Positions 7,739 to 47,514 of a stretch of DNA of 64,000 nucleotides are shown here, one piece after another. The position numbers and the translations under genes were made by a program. Origin of the DNA: Bacillota bacterium (GTDB taxonomy: Bacteria; Bacillota; Sulfobacillia; Sulfobacillales; JAIMBI01); contig JAJZWV010000003.1 in the NCBI GenBank assembly GCA_021846505.1, positions 53,866 through 117,865 on the forward strand, read 5' to 3'. The notes beneath the pieces are model-generated. The model was given only the letters and a program-made list of their open reading frames with translations. It ran no database searches and had not been told where the DNA came from. Within the stretch, counting starts at the first letter, position 1. Each line of letters opens with the position of its first letter.

Positions 7739-8119
7739 CTAAGTGGGAAGCTCCCGGTATCCGGCGGCATCCAGCAGGTGGCCGCCCGCCTGCAGCTGGT
7801 CGTCCGTGTCAATGCGCACCAGCCACCCCCGGCCGTAGGGATCCTGGTTCACGAGCTCGGGCTGGTCTTTCACCGCCTTGTTCACGGCCGCCACCGTGCC
7901 GGTCACGGGCGAAAACAAGTCCGACACCGACTTCACCGACTCCACCACGCCAAACACGGCGCCGCGCTCCACATGGCGCCCCACCTCCGGCAATTCCAGA
8001 AACACCACATCGCCCAGCGCATCCTGCGCGTGATCCGTCACGCCCACCGTGCCATCCGCCGCAATCCACTCATGCTCGGCGGTGTACCACCGATCGTCCA
8101 GCACGCTTCCCGTCGCCAT
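7739..8119 (-). CDS. gcvH: Glycine cleavage system H protein
   Basis: [63 protein letters not shown] (lipoyl ESVK motif). Confidence 0.96.
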
Positions 8120-8193
8120 GCCGATTCCCTCCCCGCAAAGCTTCTGCAACCCTCACGGCGCCTCACCCACTGCCCGGCCCCAGGCTGGTGCGG

Positions 8194-9312
8194 TCATGCC
8201 CGCCGGTAAAACGGCAGCTTGACCACCATCGCCGGCACTTGCCGGCCGCGCACCTCGACCGATACCTCCTCCCCGACTTTGATGCCCCACGCGCGCGGCA
8301 CCAGCGCCATCGCAATCGGCACCTCGAGCGTCGGCGAATGGGTCCCGGACGTCACCACCCCAGCTTCGGGCTGCCCCACGCGGGTGACCGCGTAGCCGGC
8401 GCGCGGGATGCCGCCCGAGGCTCGGAGCCCCACCAAGCGGCGCCGCGAGCCTGCCTGCTTCTGGGCCGCGAGGGCCTCGCGGCCCAGAAACCCTCCCGGC
8501 TTCTCCCACTTCACGAAGCTGCCCAGCGCCGCCTCCAGCGGGCTGATGTCCAGCGCCAGCTCATGGCCGTACAGGGGCAGCCGCGCCTCCAGCCGCAGGG
8601 TGTCACGGGCACCGAGCCCGACGGGCTTCACTCCCTGGCGCGCCAGCGCCTCCCACACGGACAGTGTGCCTTCGTGGGGCAGGTACAGCTCAAATCCATC
8701 CTCCCCGGTGTAGCCGGTGCGTGACACCAGCGCCGGGACGCCCGCCACCGGCACGCCCTCTCGAAAGTGATAGTAGCCGATATCGGCCACCGGCGCGCCC
8801 GCCAGCGCCTCGACGGCGTCTACGGCGCCGGGCCCCTGCACGGCAATCAGGCCCATGGCGTCCGACACGTCCGATAAGGCCACCGGCGGGTCCGCGCCGG
8901 CCGCCTGCTGTTTCATCCAGTCCCGGTCCGCCGCCCGGTTGCCGGCGTTGGTCACGAGGAGGTAGCGCCCCGGGCCGCGCCGGTACACCAGCAAATCGTC
9001 CTGGGTGCCGCCGTCCGGGCGGCACATGGGCGTGTACAGCGCCTGGCCCTCGGCCAGGCGGCTGGGCCAGTTCGTGACCAGCTGATCCACGAACGCGTCG
9101 GCCCCAGCACCCTCCACCAGAAATTCGGCCATGTGCGACACATCAAACATGCCCACGGACGACCGGACCCGGCGATGCTCCTCCATAATCCGCTCGTACT
9201 CGATGGGCATCCAATAACCGCCAAATTCCGCCATGCGGGCGCCCGCCGCCTCATGCCACGCCGTGAGCGGCGTGGCCAGCCCCCGCGCACTGGCCGAGCC
9301 CCCCTGCTCCAT
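8194..9312 (-). CDS. gcvT: Aminomethyltransferase (glycine cleavage T protein)
   Basis: ATPLTAWHEAAGARMAEFGGYWMPIEYERIMEEHRRVRSSVGMFDVSHMAEF; start codon choice approximate. Confidence 0.95.
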   Translation of the reverse strand: MEQGGSASARGLATPLTAWHEAAGARMAEFGGYWMPIEYERIMEEHRRVRSSVGMFDVSHMAEFLVEGAGADAFVDQLVTNWPSRLAEGQALYTPMCRPDGGTQDDLLVYRRGPGRYLLVTNAGNRAADRDWMKQQAAGADPPVALSDVSDAMGLIAVQGPGAVDAVEALAGAPVADIGYYHFREGVPVAGVPALVSRTGYTGEDGFELYLPHEGTLSVWEALARQGVKPVGLGARDTLRLEARLPLYGHELALDISPLEAALGSFVKWEKPGGFLGREALAAQKQAGSRRRLVGLRASGGIPRAGYAVTRVGQPEAGVVTSGTHSPTLEVPIAMALVPRAWGIKVGEEVSVEVRGRQVPAMVVKLPFYRRA

Positions 9313-17033: not shown

Positions 17034-17684
17034 TCACCCGACCAGGACGACCCCGACGCGGGCTGGCCCGTGCACGCCAATCCACAGCTGGCCCTCAATG
17101 TCCGCCGTGGAGCTCGGGCCCGAGATGATTTTGACCATCCGCGGCATCCGGGAAGGTGGGGAAGCTGCTCCCGCGGATGGCGCGGGGGTCTCGGACTCCC
17201 CCCGCAGCAGCCCGAGCCCCTCGGCTACATTGGCCACCACCTGGCTCGCGCGCACCACCATCAAGTGGGCTGGGGGCAAGAGACTCGGCCAGAGACCTCC
17301 GCCCGGCCCGCGGTACAGCGCCACGGACCCGGTGTCCGCCACGGCCCAGGCGGATCCGGTCACGCCCAGGGCGGCGCGGGCGGCCAGCGCGCGGATGGCC
17401 CCCTCTTCCGCCGGGCGGCCGTTCAGATAAAGGCTGCCAGCCTGCCACTCGACCGCGGCCCGCTCCCACGCCGGCCCGGTCCAAGCCGGCGCCCAGGCCG
17501 ACGCCGCAAAGCCGTGGCCCGGCCACAGGAGGACACTGGGGGTCGTGCCGGCGCTCCGATCCACCAGCGCGTCCGACGCCGCCGCCAGCACCTGCGGCAG
17601 CGCGGACGGGCCCGCGGCCTCCCAGTAGTGCCCGCCGAGCCCCTCCCAGCGCGCACGAAATTCCTCCACTAAGGCGCGCTTCAT
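17034..17684 (-). CDS. lutC: LutC/YkgG-type LUD-domain lactate utilization protein
   Basis: LUD-type WAVADTGSVALYRGPGGGLWPSLLPPAHLMVVRASQVV...KIISGPSSTADIEGQLWIGVHGPARVGVVLVG; 4-nt overlap with lutB. Confidence 0.9.
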   Translation of the reverse strand: MKRALVEEFRARWEGLGGHYWEAAGPSALPQVLAAASDALVDRSAGTTPSVLLWPGHGFAASAWAPAWTGPAWERAAVEWQAGSLYLNGRPAEEGAIRALAARAALGVTGSAWAVADTGSVALYRGPGGGLWPSLLPPAHLMVVRASQVVANVAEGLGLLRGESETPAPSAGAASPPSRMPRMVKIISGPSSTADIEGQLWIGVHGPARVGVVLVG

Positions 17685-19117
17685 GGTGCGCGCCGCCGTG
17701 CCCACCACTCATGGAAGGTCTCGGGCGCAATCGGCGGCATGTCGCGGGTGGCAAACCAGCCGCGCCACAGCCCAGGCGAGCGCACCAGCTTGCCGCCCCG
17801 CATCATGAGGGGCTGGCCCCGGCGCGCCCACGCCACAAATCGCTGATAGCGCCGCGGCGACGACCACATTCGCCCCCAGGCCCGGTAGGTGAGCCGGGTG
17901 GCGGCCGTCTCCATGCCCGCTTCGGCCGCTTCGCGCCTCAGGCTGATAAAATGGTCCGGCAATGCGATGTCCATGGGGCATGCCTCGACGCACGCATTGC
18001 ACAGGGTGCACAGCGACCGCGGCAGTTCGGGCAGAAAGGTCAAGCCCGCCAAGAGCGGCGTCGACACCGCGCCGATGGGGCCGGCGTAGGTGGACCCATA
18101 GGCGTGGCCGCCCACTTGCCGATACACCGGGCACACGTTGTAGCACGCGCCGCAGCGAATGCAGGTGAGCACATCGGCATACGGGCCCGCCTGCACCGCG
18201 CGGCGGCCATTGTCCACCAAAATGACGTGCAGCTCCTCGGGGCCCTCCAGCTCGCCGGGCTGGCGCGGCCCGCTGATGAGGGTCGTGTAGGCCGACAGCC
18301 GCTGGCCCACGCCAGAGAGCGCCGGCTGCTGAATCAGCGCCGCCAAGTCGTCCCAGGTGCCCACCACCTTGTCGAGACCCGCCACCACCACGTGCACCGG
18401 CGGCAGCGACACCACCATGTCGGCGTTGCCCTCATTGGTCACCAGCACCACCGTGCCGGTTTCCGCCACGAGAAAGTTGGCCCCAGTGATGCCGAGATCC
18501 GCCGCCAAAAAATCTTCGCGGAGCCGCGCGCGGGCAAACGCCGTGAGCGGCCCCACGTCACTGGAGGTGGGCCCCGTCACGCCCGCCGCGTCGGCCGTGT
18601 GCTGAAACACCTCCCACACCTCCTGGCGGTTGCGGTGCGCGGCGGGCGCCAAGAGGTGGCTCGGCCGCTCGCCCAGCAGCTGGATGATATATTCGCCCAG
18701 ATCCGTCTCCCGCACCGAAAGCCCCACCGCCCCGAGCCTCCGGTTCAAGTCCAGCTCCTCGGTCATCATGGACTTGGACTTGACCACCCGCCGCGCGCCG
18801 CGCCGCTGGGCGATGCGGGTGATGTGCTCCGCCACTTCAGCCGGACCGTCAGCCACCACCGCACTCACGCCGTTCGCCGCCAGGCGCGCGCACAGCTCCT
18901 GGACCATCCCGTCCATCTGGTGGATGGCGCGCCGCTTGGCGTCACGCGCCTCCGTGCGCATCGCCCGACCGGTCGCATAGTCCGCGTAGGCCCTCTGGCG
19001 GGCGCCGGCCAATCGGCGGGTCACGTTCTTCACGTTGGCGCGCAGCACGGGATTGGCCAGCGCGCGGTCCCGACGGACCGGCCAGGTGGCCGCATCACGC
19101 GTCAGCACGCCGCGCAT
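17681..19117 (-). CDS. lutB: LutB-type lactate utilization iron-sulfur protein
   Basis: CIRCGACYNVCPVY and CTLCNACVEACPMD ferredoxin motifs; VVKSKSMMTEELDLN; TGANFLVAETGTVVLVTNEGNADM. Confidence 0.94.
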   Translation of the reverse strand: MRGVLTRDAATWPVRRDRALANPVLRANVKNVTRRLAGARQRAYADYATGRAMRTEARDAKRRAIHQMDGMVQELCARLAANGVSAVVADGPAEVAEHITRIAQRRGARRVVKSKSMMTEELDLNRRLGAVGLSVRETDLGEYIIQLLGERPSHLLAPAAHRNRQEVWEVFQHTADAAGVTGPTSSDVGPLTAFARARLREDFLAADLGITGANFLVAETGTVVLVTNEGNADMVVSLPPVHVVVAGLDKVVGTWDDLAALIQQPALSGVGQRLSAYTTLISGPRQPGELEGPEELHVILVDNGRRAVQAGPYADVLTCIRCGACYNVCPVYRQVGGHAYGSTYAGPIGAVSTPLLAGLTFLPELPRSLCTLCNACVEACPMDIALPDHFISLRREAAEAGMETAATRLTYRAWGRMWSSPRRYQRFVAWARRGQPLMMRGGKLVRSPGLWRGWFATRDMPPIAPETFHEWWARRRAP

Positions 19118-19950
19118 CACGGGACCTCCGGCACAAAGCGGCCGGCGCCGGCCACTCCGGCAGGGGTAGCCGCCCCGCGATCCGCCAAGTCCACCAGCTC
19201 CGCCAGATGCAGCACCGGCCAAGGGTTCTCGGTGCGGGACAGGCGGCCGCCCAAGTGCAGCAGACAACCCCAGTCGCACCCCGCCAGCGCACTGCCGCCC
19301 ACGGCCTGGAGCGCCGCCAGCTTTTCGTCCGCCAGCGCGGTGGAAATCTCGGGCTCGGCCATCGCATAGGTGCCGCCAAAGCCGCAGCACTGGTCCCGGT
19401 CGGCCGGATCGGCCGCCGCCACCCCCAGATCCGCCAGGACCCGCGGGCCATCGCCCTCGGCCCGGAGCACTCTTCTCATGTGGCACCCCGTATGCCACGC
19501 CACCTCCAGCAGCGGACCGCTTTTGGCTTCGGCGGGCGCCTCGCGCGAAAGCCACTGCGACAGCTCGACCAGGCGGGCCGCCACGCGCTGGTGCCGCGCC
19601 GCCCATTCGCCCGCCTCCGCCCCGAGCTGGCCCTGGGCCCACGCCAAAAGCTTCGGGTATTCCTCCAGCACCATCGCCACGCACGACCCTGACAGCCCCA
19701 CAATGGCGTCGGGAGCGGGGCGGGCGTCCAGCGCCTGCAGCAGGTTCTGGGCCATGGCCAGCGCCTCCGGCCAGTGGCCGGCATTGTAGGCAAACTGGCC
19801 GCAGCAGGTTTGCCCGGGCGGAAAGCCCACCTGGGTCCCGCGCCGCTCCAGCACCGCCACCGCAGCCACCGCCGTGCTTGGCTTGAACAGGTCGACCAGG
19901 CATGACACAAACAAGTCAACTGTCTGGCCCGGGGCTTCTCGCTCAGACAT
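19117..19950 (-). CDS. lutA: LutA-type (Fe-S)-binding oxidoreductase
   Basis: FVSCLVDLFKPSTAVAAVAVLERRGTQVGFPPGQTCCGQFAYNAG; CCGFGGTYAM CCG domain motifs. Confidence 0.93.
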   Translation of the reverse strand: MSEREAPGQTVDLFVSCLVDLFKPSTAVAAVAVLERRGTQVGFPPGQTCCGQFAYNAGHWPEALAMAQNLLQALDARPAPDAIVGLSGSCVAMVLEEYPKLLAWAQGQLGAEAGEWAARHQRVAARLVELSQWLSREAPAEAKSGPLLEVAWHTGCHMRRVLRAEGDGPRVLADLGVAAADPADRDQCCGFGGTYAMAEPEISTALADEKLAALQAVGGSALAGCDWGCLLHLGGRLSRTENPWPVLHLAELVDLADRGAATPAGVAGAGRFVPEVP

Positions 19951-19953
19951 CGG

Positions 19954-20754
19954 CTACTTCCCCCCGCTCCGCCAGCGGTCCCACGCGACGCCTCCCAGCT
20001 GGGCACTCAGGCGCTGGACGGCCGCGAGCAGCACCGGGGCGATTTCATCTTCGCGGTGCGCGTCGAAGCGCTCGCTGGCCATCGTCACCGACACCGCCGC
20101 CACCCCCTGTCCGGTGTGGTCCACCACGGGGGCGGCGAGGCACCGCACCTCGGCCGAGTACTCGCCTAAGTCGCGCGCGTAGCCCCGCTCGCGCACGCGC
20201 CGAAGCTCCATCTCGAGCGCCGCGCGGGTCCGGAAGGTGTCGGGCGTGCGGGCCGGCAGCTCGGCAGGGACCAGCGCCTTCACCGCCGCCGGCTCGAGGC
20301 CCGCCAAGAGCGCCTTGCCGAGCCCGGTGGCGTAGGCGGGCAGCCGGCTGCCCACGTGCGACGCCAGCTGCAGCGGATGGCTCGATGACGCCTTGGCGAC
20401 GTACAGCACGTCGGCGCCCTCCAGCACCCCCATCTGCACCGTCTCGTCAAACGTGTCCCGCAAGCTTTCCAGCAGAGGCCAGGCCACCGGCACCAGCTGC
20501 AGCTGATGTGCGTAGCCCATCGCCAGCTCCCACAGCTTGGGTCCAGGAGTGTAGCGCTTGGTGGCCGAGTCCAGCCGGATGACGCCCCGGTCGGCCAGGG
20601 TGTGCACCAGGCCATGCAAGCTGCTGCGGGGAAAAGCAGTGGCCTCGAGGAGTTCGGTGAAGGTAAGTCCGGATGGACGCCCGGCGACCGCCTCCAGCAC
20701 TTCCACCACCCGCGCGGCCGACTTCACGGCCGCGTCTCCCTGGCGCTCTGCCAC
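19954..20754 (-). CDS. IclR-family transcriptional regulator
   Basis: SAARVVEVLEAVAGRPSGLTFTELLEATAFPRSSLHGLVHTLADRGVIRLDSATKRYTPGPKLWELA. Confidence 0.92.
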   Translation of the reverse strand: MAERQGDAAVKSAARVVEVLEAVAGRPSGLTFTELLEATAFPRSSLHGLVHTLADRGVIRLDSATKRYTPGPKLWELAMGYAHQLQLVPVAWPLLESLRDTFDETVQMGVLEGADVLYVAKASSSHPLQLASHVGSRLPAYATGLGKALLAGLEPAAVKALVPAELPARTPDTFRTRAALEMELRRVRERGYARDLGEYSAEVRCLAAPVVDHTGQGVAAVSVTMASERFDAHREDEIAPVLLAAVQRLSAQLGGVAWDRWRSGGK

Positions 20755-20857: not shown

Positions 20858-22219
20858 CTAGGCCGATGCGCTGGGAGCCTGGATCGCCTCCAGCGACTGC
20901 CCCCCGGTGCGGGGCCCAGCCAAACCTCCGACCACCAGATTGTAGGTAAACATCACGCCCATGATCACGGCCACCAGCTTAAAGCCCGAGGCGCCGTCCA
21001 GCACCGGCAGGAACAGGCTCCAGCCCCCAATCATGATGCGCATGACCGCCCACAGCGAGCCCTGTGCGGTATTGCGCACACTGGTGGGAAACAGCTCGAC
21101 GGACCAGACGCGCTGCAGCGGCCACAAGCCAATGCCCTGCCCGAACCCAAACAGCAGCACATTCAGGATGGCCACCGTGGGATCGGTGATGGGGAACGCC
21201 ACCAGCAGGAAAAACGCCGCCGCGCAGAACGCCGCGCTGATGGCATAGAGAATCCGGCGGTCCACCCGGTCATTGAACGGCATGAAGATGACCAGCACCG
21301 CCACGATGGCGGACGCAAACCACAGAATCTCCAACAGGTCGCCCCCCGCCGCCGTGGTGGCGCCCTCCGTCTTGAAGATGTACGGCAGAAAGAACCCATA
21401 CGTGCCCGCCGGGATGCCCCACAGCACATAGATAGGCGTGATGAACGCCAGCCGGCGCCAGCCGCCATTCCGAAACATCTCCCGCCATGGCGCGGCCCGC
21501 CGTGCCTCGGCCGTGCCGGCCGCTTCGGCCGTGAATCCTAGCTGGCGCGCCGCACTGGCCACTTCCGCCGTCTGGCCGTGGGCCATCGCCCAGCGCGGCG
21601 ACTCGGTCAGCGACCGGCGGAGAAGCCACGTCACGATGGCCACCAGCAGGAGGCTGCCAAACACCAGCCGCACCCCGGTGAGGCCCAGATGGCTGAACGC
21701 CAGCGACAGCAGCAGAATCACGATCGGGCCGATGTACCAGAAGATGTTGGTGAAGCCCATCATCTTCCCACGGTCCCGTTTGGGCGAAAACTCCGCAATC
21801 AGGGACCACGACGTGGGAATGTCGGCACCCACCGCCAGCCCCATCACCACCAAGCCTACAATCAGGACCGGGACGCTGCCCGCCAGAATGACCACCAGCG
21901 CGCCGAGCGCGTATATCAGCAAGTCAATTGAGTAGATGAATTTCCGGCCGTAGTAGTCCCCCAGCCGGCCGCCAATAATGGCGCCGACGGCGGTCGAGAA
22001 GCCGTTCGATCCTACGGCCGCGATGAGTCCGACCGTCGAGGTGTTGAGATGAAACAATTGCGTCCACAGAAGAACCGAGGCGCCGCCAGCCACAATGGAT
22101 CCCGCGTCCAGATAGTCTCCCAGCGCCGAAAGGATGGTCCAGCGCCAGTGTGCTCCCGTCAGGCGGGCCTCATCCACTTGGGCCAACACGCCACCGCCAG
22201 AGCCAGGTGCGGTGCTCAA
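20858..22219 (-). CDS. MFS transporter (sugar-porter-like)
   Basis: About 12 TM segments; GGRLGDYYGRKFIYSIDLLIY MFS loop motif. Confidence 0.88.
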   Translation of the reverse strand: MSTAPGSGGGVLAQVDEARLTGAHWRWTILSALGDYLDAGSIVAGGASVLLWTQLFHLNTSTVGLIAAVGSNGFSTAVGAIIGGRLGDYYGRKFIYSIDLLIYALGALVVILAGSVPVLIVGLVVMGLAVGADIPTSWSLIAEFSPKRDRGKMMGFTNIFWYIGPIVILLLSLAFSHLGLTGVRLVFGSLLLVAIVTWLLRRSLTESPRWAMAHGQTAEVASAARQLGFTAEAAGTAEARRAAPWREMFRNGGWRRLAFITPIYVLWGIPAGTYGFFLPYIFKTEGATTAAGGDLLEILWFASAIVAVLVIFMPFNDRVDRRILYAISAAFCAAAFFLLVAFPITDPTVAILNVLLFGFGQGIGLWPLQRVWSVELFPTSVRNTAQGSLWAVMRIMIGGWSLFLPVLDGASGFKLVAVIMGVMFTYNLVVGGLAGPRTGGQSLEAIQAPSASA

Positions 22220-22382: not shown

Positions 22383-23555
22383 TTAGGGGGCTGGCACCAA
22401 CTTCAGCGCGCGGTTCAGCTCGACGCCAAACCCCGGCGCCTCCGGCACGGTGACCACGCCGTCTATCGGCACCGGCTCGCCAAGCAGCAGCGGGTCAAAC
22501 ATCGGCCGAATCCCGGTGGCGGTCGGATGCATCATCAGGAACTCGGAAAACGGAGTAGCGGCCTGCGCTGCGGCAAAGTGATAGCTGTACACACTGGAGC
22601 CATGCGGAATCACCGGCACCTGCCACGTGTCCGCCAGCGCCCCAATCCGCCGCAGCTCTGTCATCCCGCCGCACCAGGTGACGTCCGGCTGCAGCACGTC
22701 GGCCGCCTCCAGCTCAAGCAGCAGCCGAAAGCCCCATCGCGTGGCTTCATGCTCGCCGGTGGCGATGCGCACGCCGGCTGGCCGGCGGCGCCGCAGCTCC
22801 CGGTACGACCAGTAGTCGTCGGCGGGAAAGCACTCTTCGATCCAGGACACGCCCAGGGGCGCCAGCCCCGCCACCAGCTGCTCAGCGTAGTTCAGGTCCA
22901 AGGCCATCCAGCAGTCCACCATCAGGAGAGCGTCGGGCCCGACGGCGCTGCGGGCCTGTGCCACGGCGTCCAGGTTGCGGCGAAGCCCCGCCGCGCCCTC
23001 GTCAGGCCCGTGCACCAGCGGCAATTTGCCGCCCACAAATCCGGCGGCCACCGCCCAGTCCGGGCGGGGCCCGGTGGCGTAGCATGGCAGCTGGCGCCGC
23101 ACGGGGCCCCCCAGCAGCTGAAACACGGGCTCCCCGCGCTGGCGGCCCCACAAGTCCCACAGCGCCAGGTCCACCGCACTGATGGCATTTAAGGCCAGCC
23201 CCTTGCGGCCGTAGTACAGGGACGACTTGTACATCTGGTCCCACACCAGCTCCACCTGGCTGGGGTGGCGGCCCACCACGAACCGCTCCAGGTGGTGGGC
23301 CACCAGCCAAGCCGCGGGCACCCCACCGGTGCTGACGCCCACGCCGATGCGGCCCGATGCATCTTCCACCTCCACCACCACCGACCCCAGCGCGTCGAGG
23401 CCCCAGGACGACCGGGTGGCCCGATACTCCGGGTAGCGGGACATCGGCGTGGCAATTTGGCCCACAATCCAGTGATCCTCCCCCTGGTCGTGGTAGTCGG
23501 CGCCGCCCCCGCGCACGGTGAGCGCGCGCACGGCGGCAATCGTCTCCCGACTCAC
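22383..23555 (-). CDS. rhmD: L-rhamnonate dehydratase-like enolase superfamily enzyme
   Basis: GGGADYHDQGEDHWIVGQIATPMSRYPEYRATRSSWG...SLYYGRKGLALNAISAVDLALWDLWG...DCWMALDLNYA...GEHEATRWGFRLLLE...PHGSSVYSYHF; GTG start. Confidence 0.88.
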   Translation of the reverse strand: MSRETIAAVRALTVRGGGADYHDQGEDHWIVGQIATPMSRYPEYRATRSSWGLDALGSVVVEVEDASGRIGVGVSTGGVPAAWLVAHHLERFVVGRHPSQVELVWDQMYKSSLYYGRKGLALNAISAVDLALWDLWGRQRGEPVFQLLGGPVRRQLPCYATGPRPDWAVAAGFVGGKLPLVHGPDEGAAGLRRNLDAVAQARSAVGPDALLMVDCWMALDLNYAEQLVAGLAPLGVSWIEECFPADDYWSYRELRRRRPAGVRIATGEHEATRWGFRLLLELEAADVLQPDVTWCGGMTELRRIGALADTWQVPVIPHGSSVYSYHFAAAQAATPFSEFLMMHPTATGIRPMFDPLLLGEPVPIDGVVTVPEAPGFGVELNRALKLVPAP

Positions 23556-24583
23556 GGCTCCACCTCCGGCGTCAGCACAATTTTGGCAAAAGGCGCAGGC
23601 CCGCGCGCCTGCTCCTGAAACGCAGCGTCGCCGGCGGCCAGCGGGCGCTGGTCTAGCCAGCCGGCGCCCGCCGGCAGCGCACCAGCTTCCCACAGACGCT
23701 TGGCCACGGCAAAGTCCTGGTCTCGGTAGCAGAACGAGCCCACCACCTCCAACTCATCGCGCACCGCCCGATTGCCGTCAAGATCGGTGGCGGGCTCATG
23801 CAGGCCCACCAGCACCAGCCGCCCGCCCCGCCGCAGGAGATTTAAGCCCCCGCGCCGGGTCTCCGCCAGGCCCACGGCATCGACCACTCGGTCCGCGCCG
23901 TCGGGATGCTCCTGCCGCAGCGCGGCCACGGGGTCCACCTGGCTGGCATCCACTACGCGGCCCGCCCCCCATCGCGCGCCCGGGGCCAAGCGGGCGGCGT
24001 TCGCATCCACCAGCCACACGGCCTCGGCCCCGCGCCGGCGAGCCATCCAGGCCGACATCAGTCCAATGATGCCGGCCCCGTAAATCAGCACCACATCGCC
24101 GGGCTCAATGCTCGCCTGGCCGGTGGCCCGCACCGCACAGGCCAGCGGCTCCACCAGTGCCCCGGTCCACAATCCCTCGCCCGGCGGGTGCACCGGCAAA
24201 AGGCAGGACGCCGGCACCACCACTCGGTCGGCAAAGCCTCCGGGAAAGTCAATCCCGATGATGCGCCGAGCTTGGCACAGCTGGCGTTGGCCGGACTGGC
24301 ACCAGCGGCACTCCCTGCAGGTAACCAGCGGGTTCACCACCACGCTCTGGCCGTGCCAGCGCGGGTCCACCTGCGCGCCCGCCGCCACTACCACCCCGGA
24401 AAATTCGTGACCCATCACCAGCGGCGGCCGCCGCAGCTCGTTGTGCCCGAGGTAGGCGCCAAGCTCCGAGCCACACACCCCCGCGCCGGCCACCTTCACC
24501 AGCACCTCGCCGGCGGCGGGGCGGGGGGACTCCGCCGTCCGGCACACCATCTGCTCCGGGCCCTCCCACACCAATGCCTGCAA
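23552..24583 (-). CDS. Zinc-dependent MDR-family alcohol/polyol dehydrogenase
   Basis: GVCGSELGAYLGHNELRRPPLVMGHEFSGVV; structural Zn CRECRWCQSGQRQLC; start approximate (TTG). Confidence 0.87.
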   Translation of the reverse strand: MQALVWEGPEQMVCRTAESPRPAAGEVLVKVAGAGVCGSELGAYLGHNELRRPPLVMGHEFSGVVVAAGAQVDPRWHGQSVVVNPLVTCRECRWCQSGQRQLCQARRIIGIDFPGGFADRVVVPASCLLPVHPPGEGLWTGALVEPLACAVRATGQASIEPGDVVLIYGAGIIGLMSAWMARRRGAEAVWLVDANAARLAPGARWGAGRVVDASQVDPVAALRQEHPDGADRVVDAVGLAETRRGGLNLLRRGGRLVLVGLHEPATDLDGNRAVRDELEVVGSFCYRDQDFAVAKRLWEAGALPAGAGWLDQRPLAAGDAAFQEQARGPAPFAKIVLTPEVEP

Positions 24584-24605
24584 GCCCTCGTCCCCCTCTT
24601 CTCCG

Positions 24606-24923
24606 CTAGTCCAGATGGTATACCTCTCTGTAGCTATTGGCGTCCGCGGGCGGATCGCCCATGACCGGCTCCATCCAGGCCCACCACCGATGCATCGCTG
24701 GATCTTCGGCCAGCTGCGCCTGGGCTGCCGCCGGGTCCTCCGCCTCAAAGTACGCCAAAAGCTCCCGGCCGGCCGCAAAAATGCTGTAGCGCGAAAACCC
24801 CGCCCGCACGAGTGCCTGCTCGACCTCGGGCCACACCGCCCGGTGGCGCTCGCGGTACTCATCTTCCATGCCCGCCCGAATGCGCATCCGAAACATCGCG
24901 CGGTTCATCGCTGCCATCGTCAC
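24606..24923 (-). CDS. rhaM: L-rhamnose mutarotase
   Basis: FRMRIRAGMEDEYRERHRAVWPEVEQALVRAGFSRYSIFAAGRELLAYFEAED...MHRWWAWMEPVM. Confidence 0.93.
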   Translation of the reverse strand: MTMAAMNRAMFRMRIRAGMEDEYRERHRAVWPEVEQALVRAGFSRYSIFAAGRELLAYFEAEDPAAAQAQLAEDPAMHRWWAWMEPVMGDPPADANSYREVYHLD

Positions 24924-24945: not shown

Positions 24946-25719
24946 TCACTGCAGGTTCACAAACAGGCCGCCGTCAACCAGCAAGTCGGCGCCGGTGATG
25001 TACGCCGCCTCGTCCGAGGCCAAAAACGCCACCGCGCCCGCAATGTCGCGCGGCGCGCCCAGGCGCCCGACCGGGATGCGGGCTTCGTCGCGGGCCCGGA
25101 GCCCTGGCTCTTCATAGTGGGCGCGGTTGATGTCCGTCAGGATCGACCCCGGCATCACGCTGTTGCAGGTGATGCCATAGGGTCCCAGCACAATGGCCAG
25201 CGACTGCATCAGGGATCGCACGCCTGCCTTAGTGGGCGTGTAGTGGGTCTGCAGCGCCCCACCCACCAGCGCCGAAATCGAGGACATGCTGATGATGCGC
25301 CCGCCCGCGCCACGGTCCCGCATCATCTGCGACGCGCGGTGGCTGCACAGAAATGTGCCTTTTAAGTTGACCGCCGCCACCCGGTCCCACAGGGCCTCGG
25401 TCATGCCCCACCAATCTTGGAACGGGCAGATGCCCGCATTGTTGACCAGAATGTCCACCTGCCCGGCCTCTGAGGCCACCGTGTCGAACAGGCGCGCCAC
25501 TTGGTCCGCATCGGACACGTCCGCCTCGGCTGCCAGCGCCTTGCCGCCGGCTTCTTGTATCGCTCGGACCACGCCGGCGGCGTGCGCTGCCTCCCCAACC
25601 TCCCCGGGGAAGTTGACGATCACCTCGGCGCCGGCTTCCGCGAGCCGGAGCGCGACCGCACGGCCGATGCCCCGCCCCGCGCCGGTGACCACCGCGACTT
25701 TTCCACTCAGCTGTGCCAC
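24946..25719 (-). CDS. SDR-family oxidoreductase, probable L-rhamnose 1-dehydrogenase
   Basis: TGAGRGIG cofactor motif, NNAG, YxxxK region (HYTPTKAG); genome context with rhaM and rhmD; GTG start. Confidence 0.8.
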   Translation of the reverse strand: MAQLSGKVAVVTGAGRGIGRAVALRLAEAGAEVIVNFPGEVGEAAHAAGVVRAIQEAGGKALAAEADVSDADQVARLFDTVASEAGQVDILVNNAGICPFQDWWGMTEALWDRVAAVNLKGTFLCSHRASQMMRDRGAGGRIISMSSISALVGGALQTHYTPTKAGVRSLMQSLAIVLGPYGITCNSVMPGSILTDINRAHYEEPGLRARDEARIPVGRLGAPRDIAGAVAFLASDEAAYITGADLLVDGGLFVNLQ

Positions 25720-25766: not shown

Positions 25767-26561
25767 TCAGGCGCCGCCCTGACTGACCCATCCCTCCGGA
25801 AACCGCTCCAAGGTGCGGGGATCGTACAAGGACACGAAGCGCCCGCCGGCCGCTCGGATGCGGCGGTAAGCCTCGCGGCACTCCGCCAGACTTTCGTTGA
25901 TGCCGAGCGGACGGTCGTCTTCCAGGTTTTCGTAGTAGAAGGCGACGTCGGACAGGACCACCAGACCCTGTGCGGTCTCCACCTCCACTGCCAGCGAGCT
26001 CCGGTGGTGGGTGCCGGCCCACCAGGTCCGCACCCCCGGCATCACCTCGTCGTACGCATCGTCTAGAAGCCGGAGCCGGCGCTCCCACCAGCAGGTTTCT
26101 ATAAGGTAGCGCAGGTGGCGGTCGGGCACCGCCATCCGCCGCCGCGGGTCAAAGTACGCCGGCGCGACTAGGTCCTCCCACCCGCGCCGGCTGATGCAAA
26201 TCTCGGCGCGCGGGAAGCGATCGATGTTGCCGATGGCGTACGCTTGCAGCGGCGTCACCACGATGGCGTCCACCTCGTCGGGCGCCACCCCGGCTCGTGC
26301 CAGCCACCGGTCCACGGCCTGGGGCCCCTCCACCGCAATGTGTGCCCGCGGCCCCAGCTCCTCGCGCCACACGGCGTTCATGACATCCAGGTAGTCTTCC
26401 GGCGGGCCGGTGTTCACCAGCACCGTGTGCCCGCCCCCCCGGATAACCCCCACAAATACGCCGAGCGGCAGCCACTCGCCAAAGTGGCTCATCCAAAACA
26501 CCTCGGGGCCGGGCACCTCCCCCAAGTCAGCCGCTTTCACCATCCGCACCGTATAGGCCAC
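25767..26561 (-). CDS. Metallo-beta-lactamase-fold (lactonase-like) protein with non-canonical active site
   Basis: VNTGPPED...APDEVDAIVVTPLQAYAIGNIDRFPRAEICISRRGWED...AGTHHRSSLAVEVETAQGLVVLSDVAFYYENLED; MBL topology but HxHxDH replaced by PLQAYA; GTG start after RBS gaaaggggg. Confidence 0.7.
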   Translation of the reverse strand: MAYTVRMVKAADLGEVPGPEVFWMSHFGEWLPLGVFVGVIRGGGHTVLVNTGPPEDYLDVMNAVWREELGPRAHIAVEGPQAVDRWLARAGVAPDEVDAIVVTPLQAYAIGNIDRFPRAEICISRRGWEDLVAPAYFDPRRRMAVPDRHLRYLIETCWWERRLRLLDDAYDEVMPGVRTWWAGTHHRSSLAVEVETAQGLVVLSDVAFYYENLEDDRPLGINESLAECREAYRRIRAAGGRFVSLYDPRTLERFPEGWVSQGGA

Positions 26562-46450: not shown

Positions 46451-47514
46451 GTGGACCAGGCCCCCGCACTCGCGCTCGCAGCGTTTCGCCCCCGCTCCAT
46501 GATCCAGGTTGCGAGCCGCGCCCTCGAGCGCGCGCTTTTCGTCCATTGGCCTGAACAACCACTCGCGGGCGCTGGCAGGTTACGGACGTGCCCGCGTTAG
46601 TGGCCGAGATGGACGCGGCCGGCGTGGCCGCCATGGTGGACCTGGACGGCGGCAGCGGCGCTCGCCTCGCGGAGCACCTGCGCCGGCTTCGCGGCCCCTA
46701 TCCGGACCGGTTTGCCATCTTTGCCACCGTCGACTGGGACGGGGCGCTGGCTCACGCCGACTTTGGCGAGCGCTTGGCCCGCGAGCTGTCGGATGCCGCC
46801 GGGGACGGCGCGGAAGGCCTCAAAGTGTGGAAAGACGTTGGGCTCACCCGCCGCACGCCCGAGGGGTTCCGGCTGTCCGTGGCCGACCCGCGCCTCAGCC
46901 CGCTGTGGGAGGTGTGTGCCGAGCGCGCCCTCCCGGTGATGATTCACGTGGCCGACCCGATCGCGTTTTTTCAGCCGCTGGATCCCTCCAATGAGCGCTA
47001 CGAGGAGCTGGCCAGCCACCCCGACTGGCACTTTTGGGGCCCCGGCGTTCCCACCCACGCTGAGCTCATCGAGGAGCTGGAGACCTTCCTGGCAGGCCAT
47101 AGCGGCGTGCGCTTCATCGGGGCGCACGTCGCCTCCCGCTCCGAGAACGTGGGGCTGGTGGCCACGCTGTTAGCGCGCCACCCGAACCTCACCGTGGACA
47201 TCGCTGCTCGCACGGCCGAGCTGGGCCGCCACCCCTACACCGCGCACGACTTTTTGGAGCAGCACATCGGCCGCGTGGCCTTTGGGCTGGACGACTGGCC
47301 GGCTCAGCGCGAGGACTACCGCGCCGCGTACCGGATGCTGGAGACCCGCGACGAGTACTTCGACTACAGCCCCGCCCAAGACCGTTACCCCGGCTTGCAG
47401 AGGCGCTGGAAGATTTACGGCCTAGACCTGTCCGACTCGGCGCTGCGCTCGATCTACCAGGGCACCGCCCTCCAGATCATCCCCCGCTTTTGCACCGCGC
47501 TGGCCGGCCAGTAG
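46451..47514 (+). pseudogene. Amidohydrolase (COG2159-like) with frameshifted N-terminus; long ORF 46588-47514 remains
   Basis: N-terminal fragments VDQAPALALAAFRPRSMIQVASRALERA / RFSSIGLNNHSRALAG / RWQVTDVPALVAEMDAAGV lie in three frames; downstream IHVADPIAFFQPLDPSNERYEEL...FIGAHVAS...FGLDDWP typical of the family. Confidence 0.65.

Follow-up and report, generated by a model that had tools for sequence, protein, structure and literature searches.

The window, the 64,000-nucleotide stretch of DNA analysed here, carries a set of L-rhamnose genes whose first member encodes an MBL-fold protein lacking the usual metal motif (MBL*). The initial annotation had placed this gene at the head of an L-rhamnose operon, and the gene order in the window agrees. 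The cluster runs from MBL* through an SDR, RhaM, an MDR dehydrogenase, RhmD, an MFS transporter and an IclR regulator to Lut-like genes:

25767..26561, (-) strand: MBL-fold protein without HxHxDH metal motif (MBL*), 264 aa, GTG start
24946..25719, (-) strand: SDR, L-rhamnose 1-dehydrogenase Lra1-like (333 bits; curated cut-off 400)
24606..24923, (-) strand: L-rhamnose mutarotase RhaM (PF05336)
23552..24610, (-) strand: MDR-family dehydrogenase, candidate 2-keto-3-deoxy-L-rhamnonate 4-dehydrogenase (5' end provisional)
22383..23558, (-) strand: L-rhamnonate dehydratase RhmD (NF011968, 585 bits, cut-off 393; 5' end provisional)
20858..22219, (-) strand: MFS sugar-type transporter (profile match)
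19954..20754, (-) strand: IclR-family regulator (profile match)
17034..19950, (-) strand: three lactate-utilisation (Lut)-like genes: LutA-like (19117-19950), LutB-like (17681-19117) and LutC-like (17034-17708, assigned by eye)

The MBL* reading frame opens with a GTG at 26561, directly upstream of which lies a purine-rich, Shine-Dalgarno-like stretch (AAAGGGGG). Ortholog start sites in other genomes fall at the same position. Further along the pathway, a KDR dehydrogenase (KDRDH) of the MDR superfamily is reported to have been characterised in Sulfobacillus thermosulfidooxidans (cited in PMC5674754). Route III is the known pathway in which the diketo acid is hydrolysed to pyruvate and lactate (PMC6336799), and the Lut-like genes would oxidise the lactate product. 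The initial annotation had also remarked on the lack of a C-C hydrolase. This is true of the window cluster, from which an FAH-family C-C hydrolase is absent, but not of the sister clusters, which contain one. Three FAH proteins are moreover encoded elsewhere in the same genome, one of which (G000:C49) shares 53% identity with the sister-cluster FAH over 208 residues. The window also holds a weak PF04909 amidohydrolase match at 46591-47478(+), some 20 kb away from the rhamnose genes.

MBL* matches the Pfam family Lactamase_B (PF00753) weakly but passes the family cut-off (E=5.8e-6), and matches the NCBIfam AiiA-type AHL lactonase profile with E=3.6e-7. Its scores of 29.6 and 21.3 bits lie far below the respective equivalog cut-offs of 375 and 390 bits for the AiiA and AttM AHL lactonases. 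An AlphaFold2 model built from nine sequences reached a pLDDT of 77.6 and a pTM of 0.85, with low confidence at loop residues 19-26 on the substrate side. The top PDB fold match of this model is the AHL lactonase 8x78 (TM 0.76, E=2.6e-15), and GcL, AiiA and 4-pyridoxolactonase are among the best matches. Because profile and predicted-fold matches both lead to this group, they confirm, at the level of a structural model, that MBL* has an MBL fold of the lactonase branch. The likeness to AHL lactonases proposed initially is thereby borne out, and the fold search, in which the absence of an MBL match would have told against it, returned MBL lactonases. Searches with PF04909 and PF08450 gave no match to MBL* at E<=1, which sets it apart from the amidohydrolase and SMP-30 folds of the LRA2 family. 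No output domain is present beyond the MBL domain.

To describe the former metal site, 27 distinct metal-less sequences were aligned with 12 sampled metal-intact relatives of the same class. The following positions of MBL*, replaced or kept, are of note:

26235..26252, (-) strand: P104-L-Q106-A-Y108-A109 in place of HxHxDH, invariant in 27/27
26502..26513, (-) strand: P17-G18-P19-E20, loop gained by the metal-less clade and invariant in it (model confidence low at 19-26)
25995..26009, (-) strand: H185-H186-R187-S188-S189, in which H185 is the kept GH-motif ligand and HRS is new and invariant
25947..25949, (-) strand: D205, kept bridging-Asp position (alignment)
25824..25826, (-) strand: Y246 in place of the last metal His, SHDP becoming LYDP (alignment)

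All seven metal ligands are kept in each of the 12 intact relatives, where the HxHxDH ligand positions read H, H, D and H. In all 27 metal-less sequences the same positions are occupied by P104, Q106, Y108 and A109, and TPLQAYAIGN stands in place of THxHxDHxG (27/27 versus 0/12). The last metal His is likewise replaced by Tyr (Y246) and the Asp of the xDTG strand by Asn (N50) in every metal-less member. Five of the seven ligands are thus lost. The two survivors, H185 of the GH motif and D205 at the bridging position, are retained throughout the clade and are all that MBL* keeps of the set that marks a dimetal MBL metallo-hydrolase (HxHxDH, GH His, bridging Asp and last His). E20, H186, R187, S188 and S189 are further invariant residues of the clade. 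These results uphold the initial reading of a TPLQAYA replacement, which homologues conserve at every ligand position, of a late metal His exchanged within YDP and of a kept Asp in LSD. The same reading was mistaken in counting the GH-motif His as lost, since both the multiple alignment and a pairwise alignment to AiiA place a His at H185.

In the phylogenetic tree, calculated with the ligand columns left out, one branch with support of 100/99 sets the metal-less sequences apart from all others; long branches make it uncertain where the distant intact outgroups belong. By this topology, the metal-less clade has one origin. Of the eleven pairs with finite dS, ten have dN/dS values of about 0.06-0.17, the exception being the pair L031/L055 (0.70). 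Because the replacement is conserved in 27/27 sequences and dN/dS is mostly well below 1, these comparisons indicate that the loss of ligands is a stable state maintained by purifying selection, in line with the earlier view that the gene does not represent one-off decay. The nearest neighbours of MBL*, among which intact HxHxDH motifs would have argued for such decay, are all without the motif.

MBL* was found in 23 of the 154 genomes of the class, all from one order. Of 399 genomes sampled evenly over the phylum, none gave a further metal-less member in a profile search; besides MBL* itself there were two matches, at E values of 6e-19 and 5e-16, of which the first was inspected and is metal-intact. 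When about 85,000 species were scanned for exact peptides, a method of limited sensitivity, only seven loci came up, one in Sulfobacillus benefaciens and six in genomes named Bacillota bacterium. Within the limits of these searches, the metal-less clade looks confined to one Sulfobacillus-type order. One genome of the order (G102) carries two metal-less copies in tandem, at L006:7135-7920 and 7962-8783, which are 50% and 56% identical to MBL*.

Linkage of MBL* to the rhamnose pathway had been proposed and proves exclusive across the class: it lies inside rhamnose clusters, and RhmD is present in 23/23 genomes with MBL* compared with 3/131 without it (Fisher p=2e-24, before correction for shared ancestry). 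In the three exceptions (G089, G124 and G057) the rhamnose cluster meets a contig end. A rhamnose dehydrogenase and RhmD adjoin MBL* in nearly all clusters examined. RhmD genomes that might use another lactonase in the place of MBL* were sought as well: besides the three with cut clusters, the phylum sample yielded one more RhmD, in G504, whose cluster is without an SDR. RhaM adjoins MBL* both in the window genus and in G119; in many sister clusters it was not detected. A role of MBL* as a replacement for RhaM is unsupported, given this co-occurrence. The G119 cluster (L051:1418-8975) further contains, after MBL*, a second enolase (36% identical to RhmD) and a DHDPS-family aldolase, which suggests that the pathway is branched in this genome or makes use of an aldolase.

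The sister clusters are ordered IclR-MBL*-MDR-FAH-SDR-RhmD-LutA-LutB. With those gene assignments, they would cover the whole route by which L-rhamnose becomes pyruvate and lactate, apart from the lactonase. Because every other step has another gene, MBL* is a candidate for this one. No SMP-30 (PF08450) lactonase was found in 12 of the 26 RhmD genomes, including the present one and the near-complete G108 and G109; the other 14 encode SMP-30 proteins. PF04909 amidohydrolases, the superfamily of bacterial LRA2, occur elsewhere in all 26 RhmD genomes, so their presence does not discriminate.

The neighbourhoods of related proteins support a lactonase slot, lactone opening being the step that they would share between aldose dehydrogenase and aldonate dehydratase. 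Diverged metal-less copies in G093 and G094 (41-43% identity) belong to clusters whose SDR and enolase-family dehydratase both differ from those of the rhamnose clusters. The nearest metal-intact relatives within the order (G084:C40, G104:C115 and G122:C12) are 29-36% identical to MBL* and, unlike it, have all seven ligands intact and are predicted to serve other sugar acids. Like MBL*, they lie beside an SDR and a sugar-acid dehydratase in 3/3 genomes: an enolase dehydratase in G104 and G084, and an IlvD/EDD dehydratase and UxuA in G122. More distant intact relatives are also next to SDRs, but none of the sugar-acid dehydratases searched for adjoins them. Judged from gene order in three intact examples, the arrangement of SDR, MBL protein and sugar-acid dehydratase seems older than the metal loss.

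Several other loci have features of their own. At L041:2942-14391 the genes around an intact relative encode a sulfatase, two SDRs, IlvD/EDD and UxuA dehydratases and an RraA-like aldolase, possibly a catabolic cluster for a sulfated sugar. The window genome itself encodes a metal-intact MBL paralog (G000:C94, L045:7300-8043) directly downstream of an SDR. Large proteins of 841-888 aa with no Pfam match are encoded near metal-less copies at L039:6156-8822(-) and L006:2485-5010(+), and in both loci a class V aminotransferase-like gene adjoins the MBL copy. These two loci possibly represent a second sugar pathway.

We propose, with some reserve, that MBL* is a lactone-acting enzyme without the canonical dimetal centre, converting L-rhamnonolactone to L-rhamnonate for RhmD. 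Its substrate, reaction and catalytic residues are inferred, and the lactonase assignment derives from the position in the pathway. The ancestor would have been a metal-dependent lactonase, in keeping with the fact that lactonases are the best matches at both profile and fold level, and the clade has permanently lost five of seven dimetal ligands. The neighbouring L-rhamnose dehydrogenase would make L-rhamnonolactone, which the former metal pocket would still receive. H185 and D205 may activate water as an acid-base pair, or else bind one metal weakly, and the clade-specific polar residues at the old metal site (Q106, Y108, H186-R187-S188, Y246 and E20) may take up the lactone and stabilise its oxyanion. 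The most specific form of this proposal, a metal-independent MBL-fold lactonase that discarded the dimetal centre and rebuilt the site around a His-Asp pair while keeping its role in the pathway, is possible but clearly more speculative.

In favour of the proposal, the lactonase step is required in vivo in A. niger (lraB, PMC5674754). Against it, the amidohydrolase and SMP-30 genes elsewhere in the genomes make a lactonase acting in trans possible. Sugar lactones also open spontaneously, so that a dedicated lactonase is perhaps needless, especially in a warm-growing organism. Spontaneous opening, together with the PF08450 and PF04909 proteins encoded elsewhere, weakens the argument from a missing gene.

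The strongest rival to a lactonase is a non-catalytic pseudoenzyme that binds the lactone or sugar, or acts as a scaffold or regulator of, for example, the SDR or RhmD. We consider this reading doubtful, though it deserves serious attention. The loss of five ligands in every metal-less member would fit it, as would the tandem copies in G102 and the precedent of CPSF100 and INTS9, which have lost motif 2 and serve as partners of an active paralog (PMC4819959, PMC7980224). Yet no intact MBL paralog was seen in the rhamnose clusters that could be such a partner, and MBL* is without an extra output domain. Moreover, the clade shows no variation at many polar residues of the former active site, which makes a constraint from catalysis or tight binding look likelier. 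The same residues might instead build a lactonase with an alternative metal, in which H185 and D205 would form a putative new mononuclear site with H186, E20 or Y246. All five are invariant, the last three newly so, but with two canonical ligands left and Pro, Gln, Tyr and Ala in the HxHxDH loop the usual zinc set is gone, and this solution is unlikely. By sequence, metal-independent catalysis, use of an alternative metal and a sensor or scaffold role cannot be separated.

Two further chemistries have been considered. A metal-free acid-base site would suit an isomerase that interconverts 1,5- and 1,4-rhamnonolactone, or a sugar mutarotase; the SDR product could require ring conversion, and many sister clusters have no detected RhaM. 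Mutarotation is nevertheless covered where RhaM adjoins MBL*, and the ancestral lineage consists of lactonases, so we regard an isomerase as distinctly improbable. Hydrolysis of 2,4-diketo-3-deoxyrhamnonate, which the initial annotation had offered as an alternative substrate, would account for the missing FAH gene in the window cluster. We reject this C-C hydrolase role as very improbable, since in many sister clusters of the order a separate FAH-family hydrolase gene lies beside MBL* and the window genome has its own FAH proteins, one of them close to the cluster FAH. One-off decay or an annotation artefact, in favour of which nothing was found, is refuted by the invariant replacement and the low dN/dS and is scarcely credible.

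When comparing MBL* with known systems, the AHL lactonases (AiiA, GcL, AttM and P. poae 8x78) share its fold, length, GH-motif His, bridging Asp and motif order. In contrast to these enzymes, MBL* has HxHxDH, the last His and the strand Asp replaced, has gained the clade-specific PGPE loop and HHRSS motif, and is encoded in a sugar pathway. The L-rhamnono-gamma-lactonase LRA2 and the SMP-30 aldonolactonases occupy the same predicted reaction and pathway slot, but are metal-dependent and of unrelated folds, amidohydrolase and beta-propeller (PMC9795676). UlaG, the L-ascorbate-6-phosphate lactonase, is an MBL-fold enzyme acting on a sugar-derived lactone, as proposed for MBL*, but is Mn-dependent and belongs to a distant branch of the superfamily (PMC7785958). 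The further well-characterised cases of ligand loss in MBL domains, CPSF100 and INTS9, are non-catalytic (PMC4819959, PMC7980224). Their pseudo-MBL domains resemble MBL* in having lost the HxHxDH ligands while being kept by selection; unlike MBL*, they are eukaryotic RNA-processing scaffolds with an active paralog partner and a beta-CASP domain.

The searches made found no record of MBL* in the literature. The fold and the pathway are already known; what is new, as far as these searches show, is a bacterial catabolic MBL clade in which loss of the dimetal site is fixed. A metal site is the defining feature of the MBL superfamily, and MBL* is an example of how the Pfam label 'metallo-hydrolase' can mislead about the metal. 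A clade of this kind, still strictly tied to one pathway, would be a natural example of an enzyme that took up new chemistry in an unchanged role, or else of a pseudoenzyme that serves metabolism. For the Sulfobacillus-type rhamnose pathway, MBL* is a candidate for the missing lactonase.
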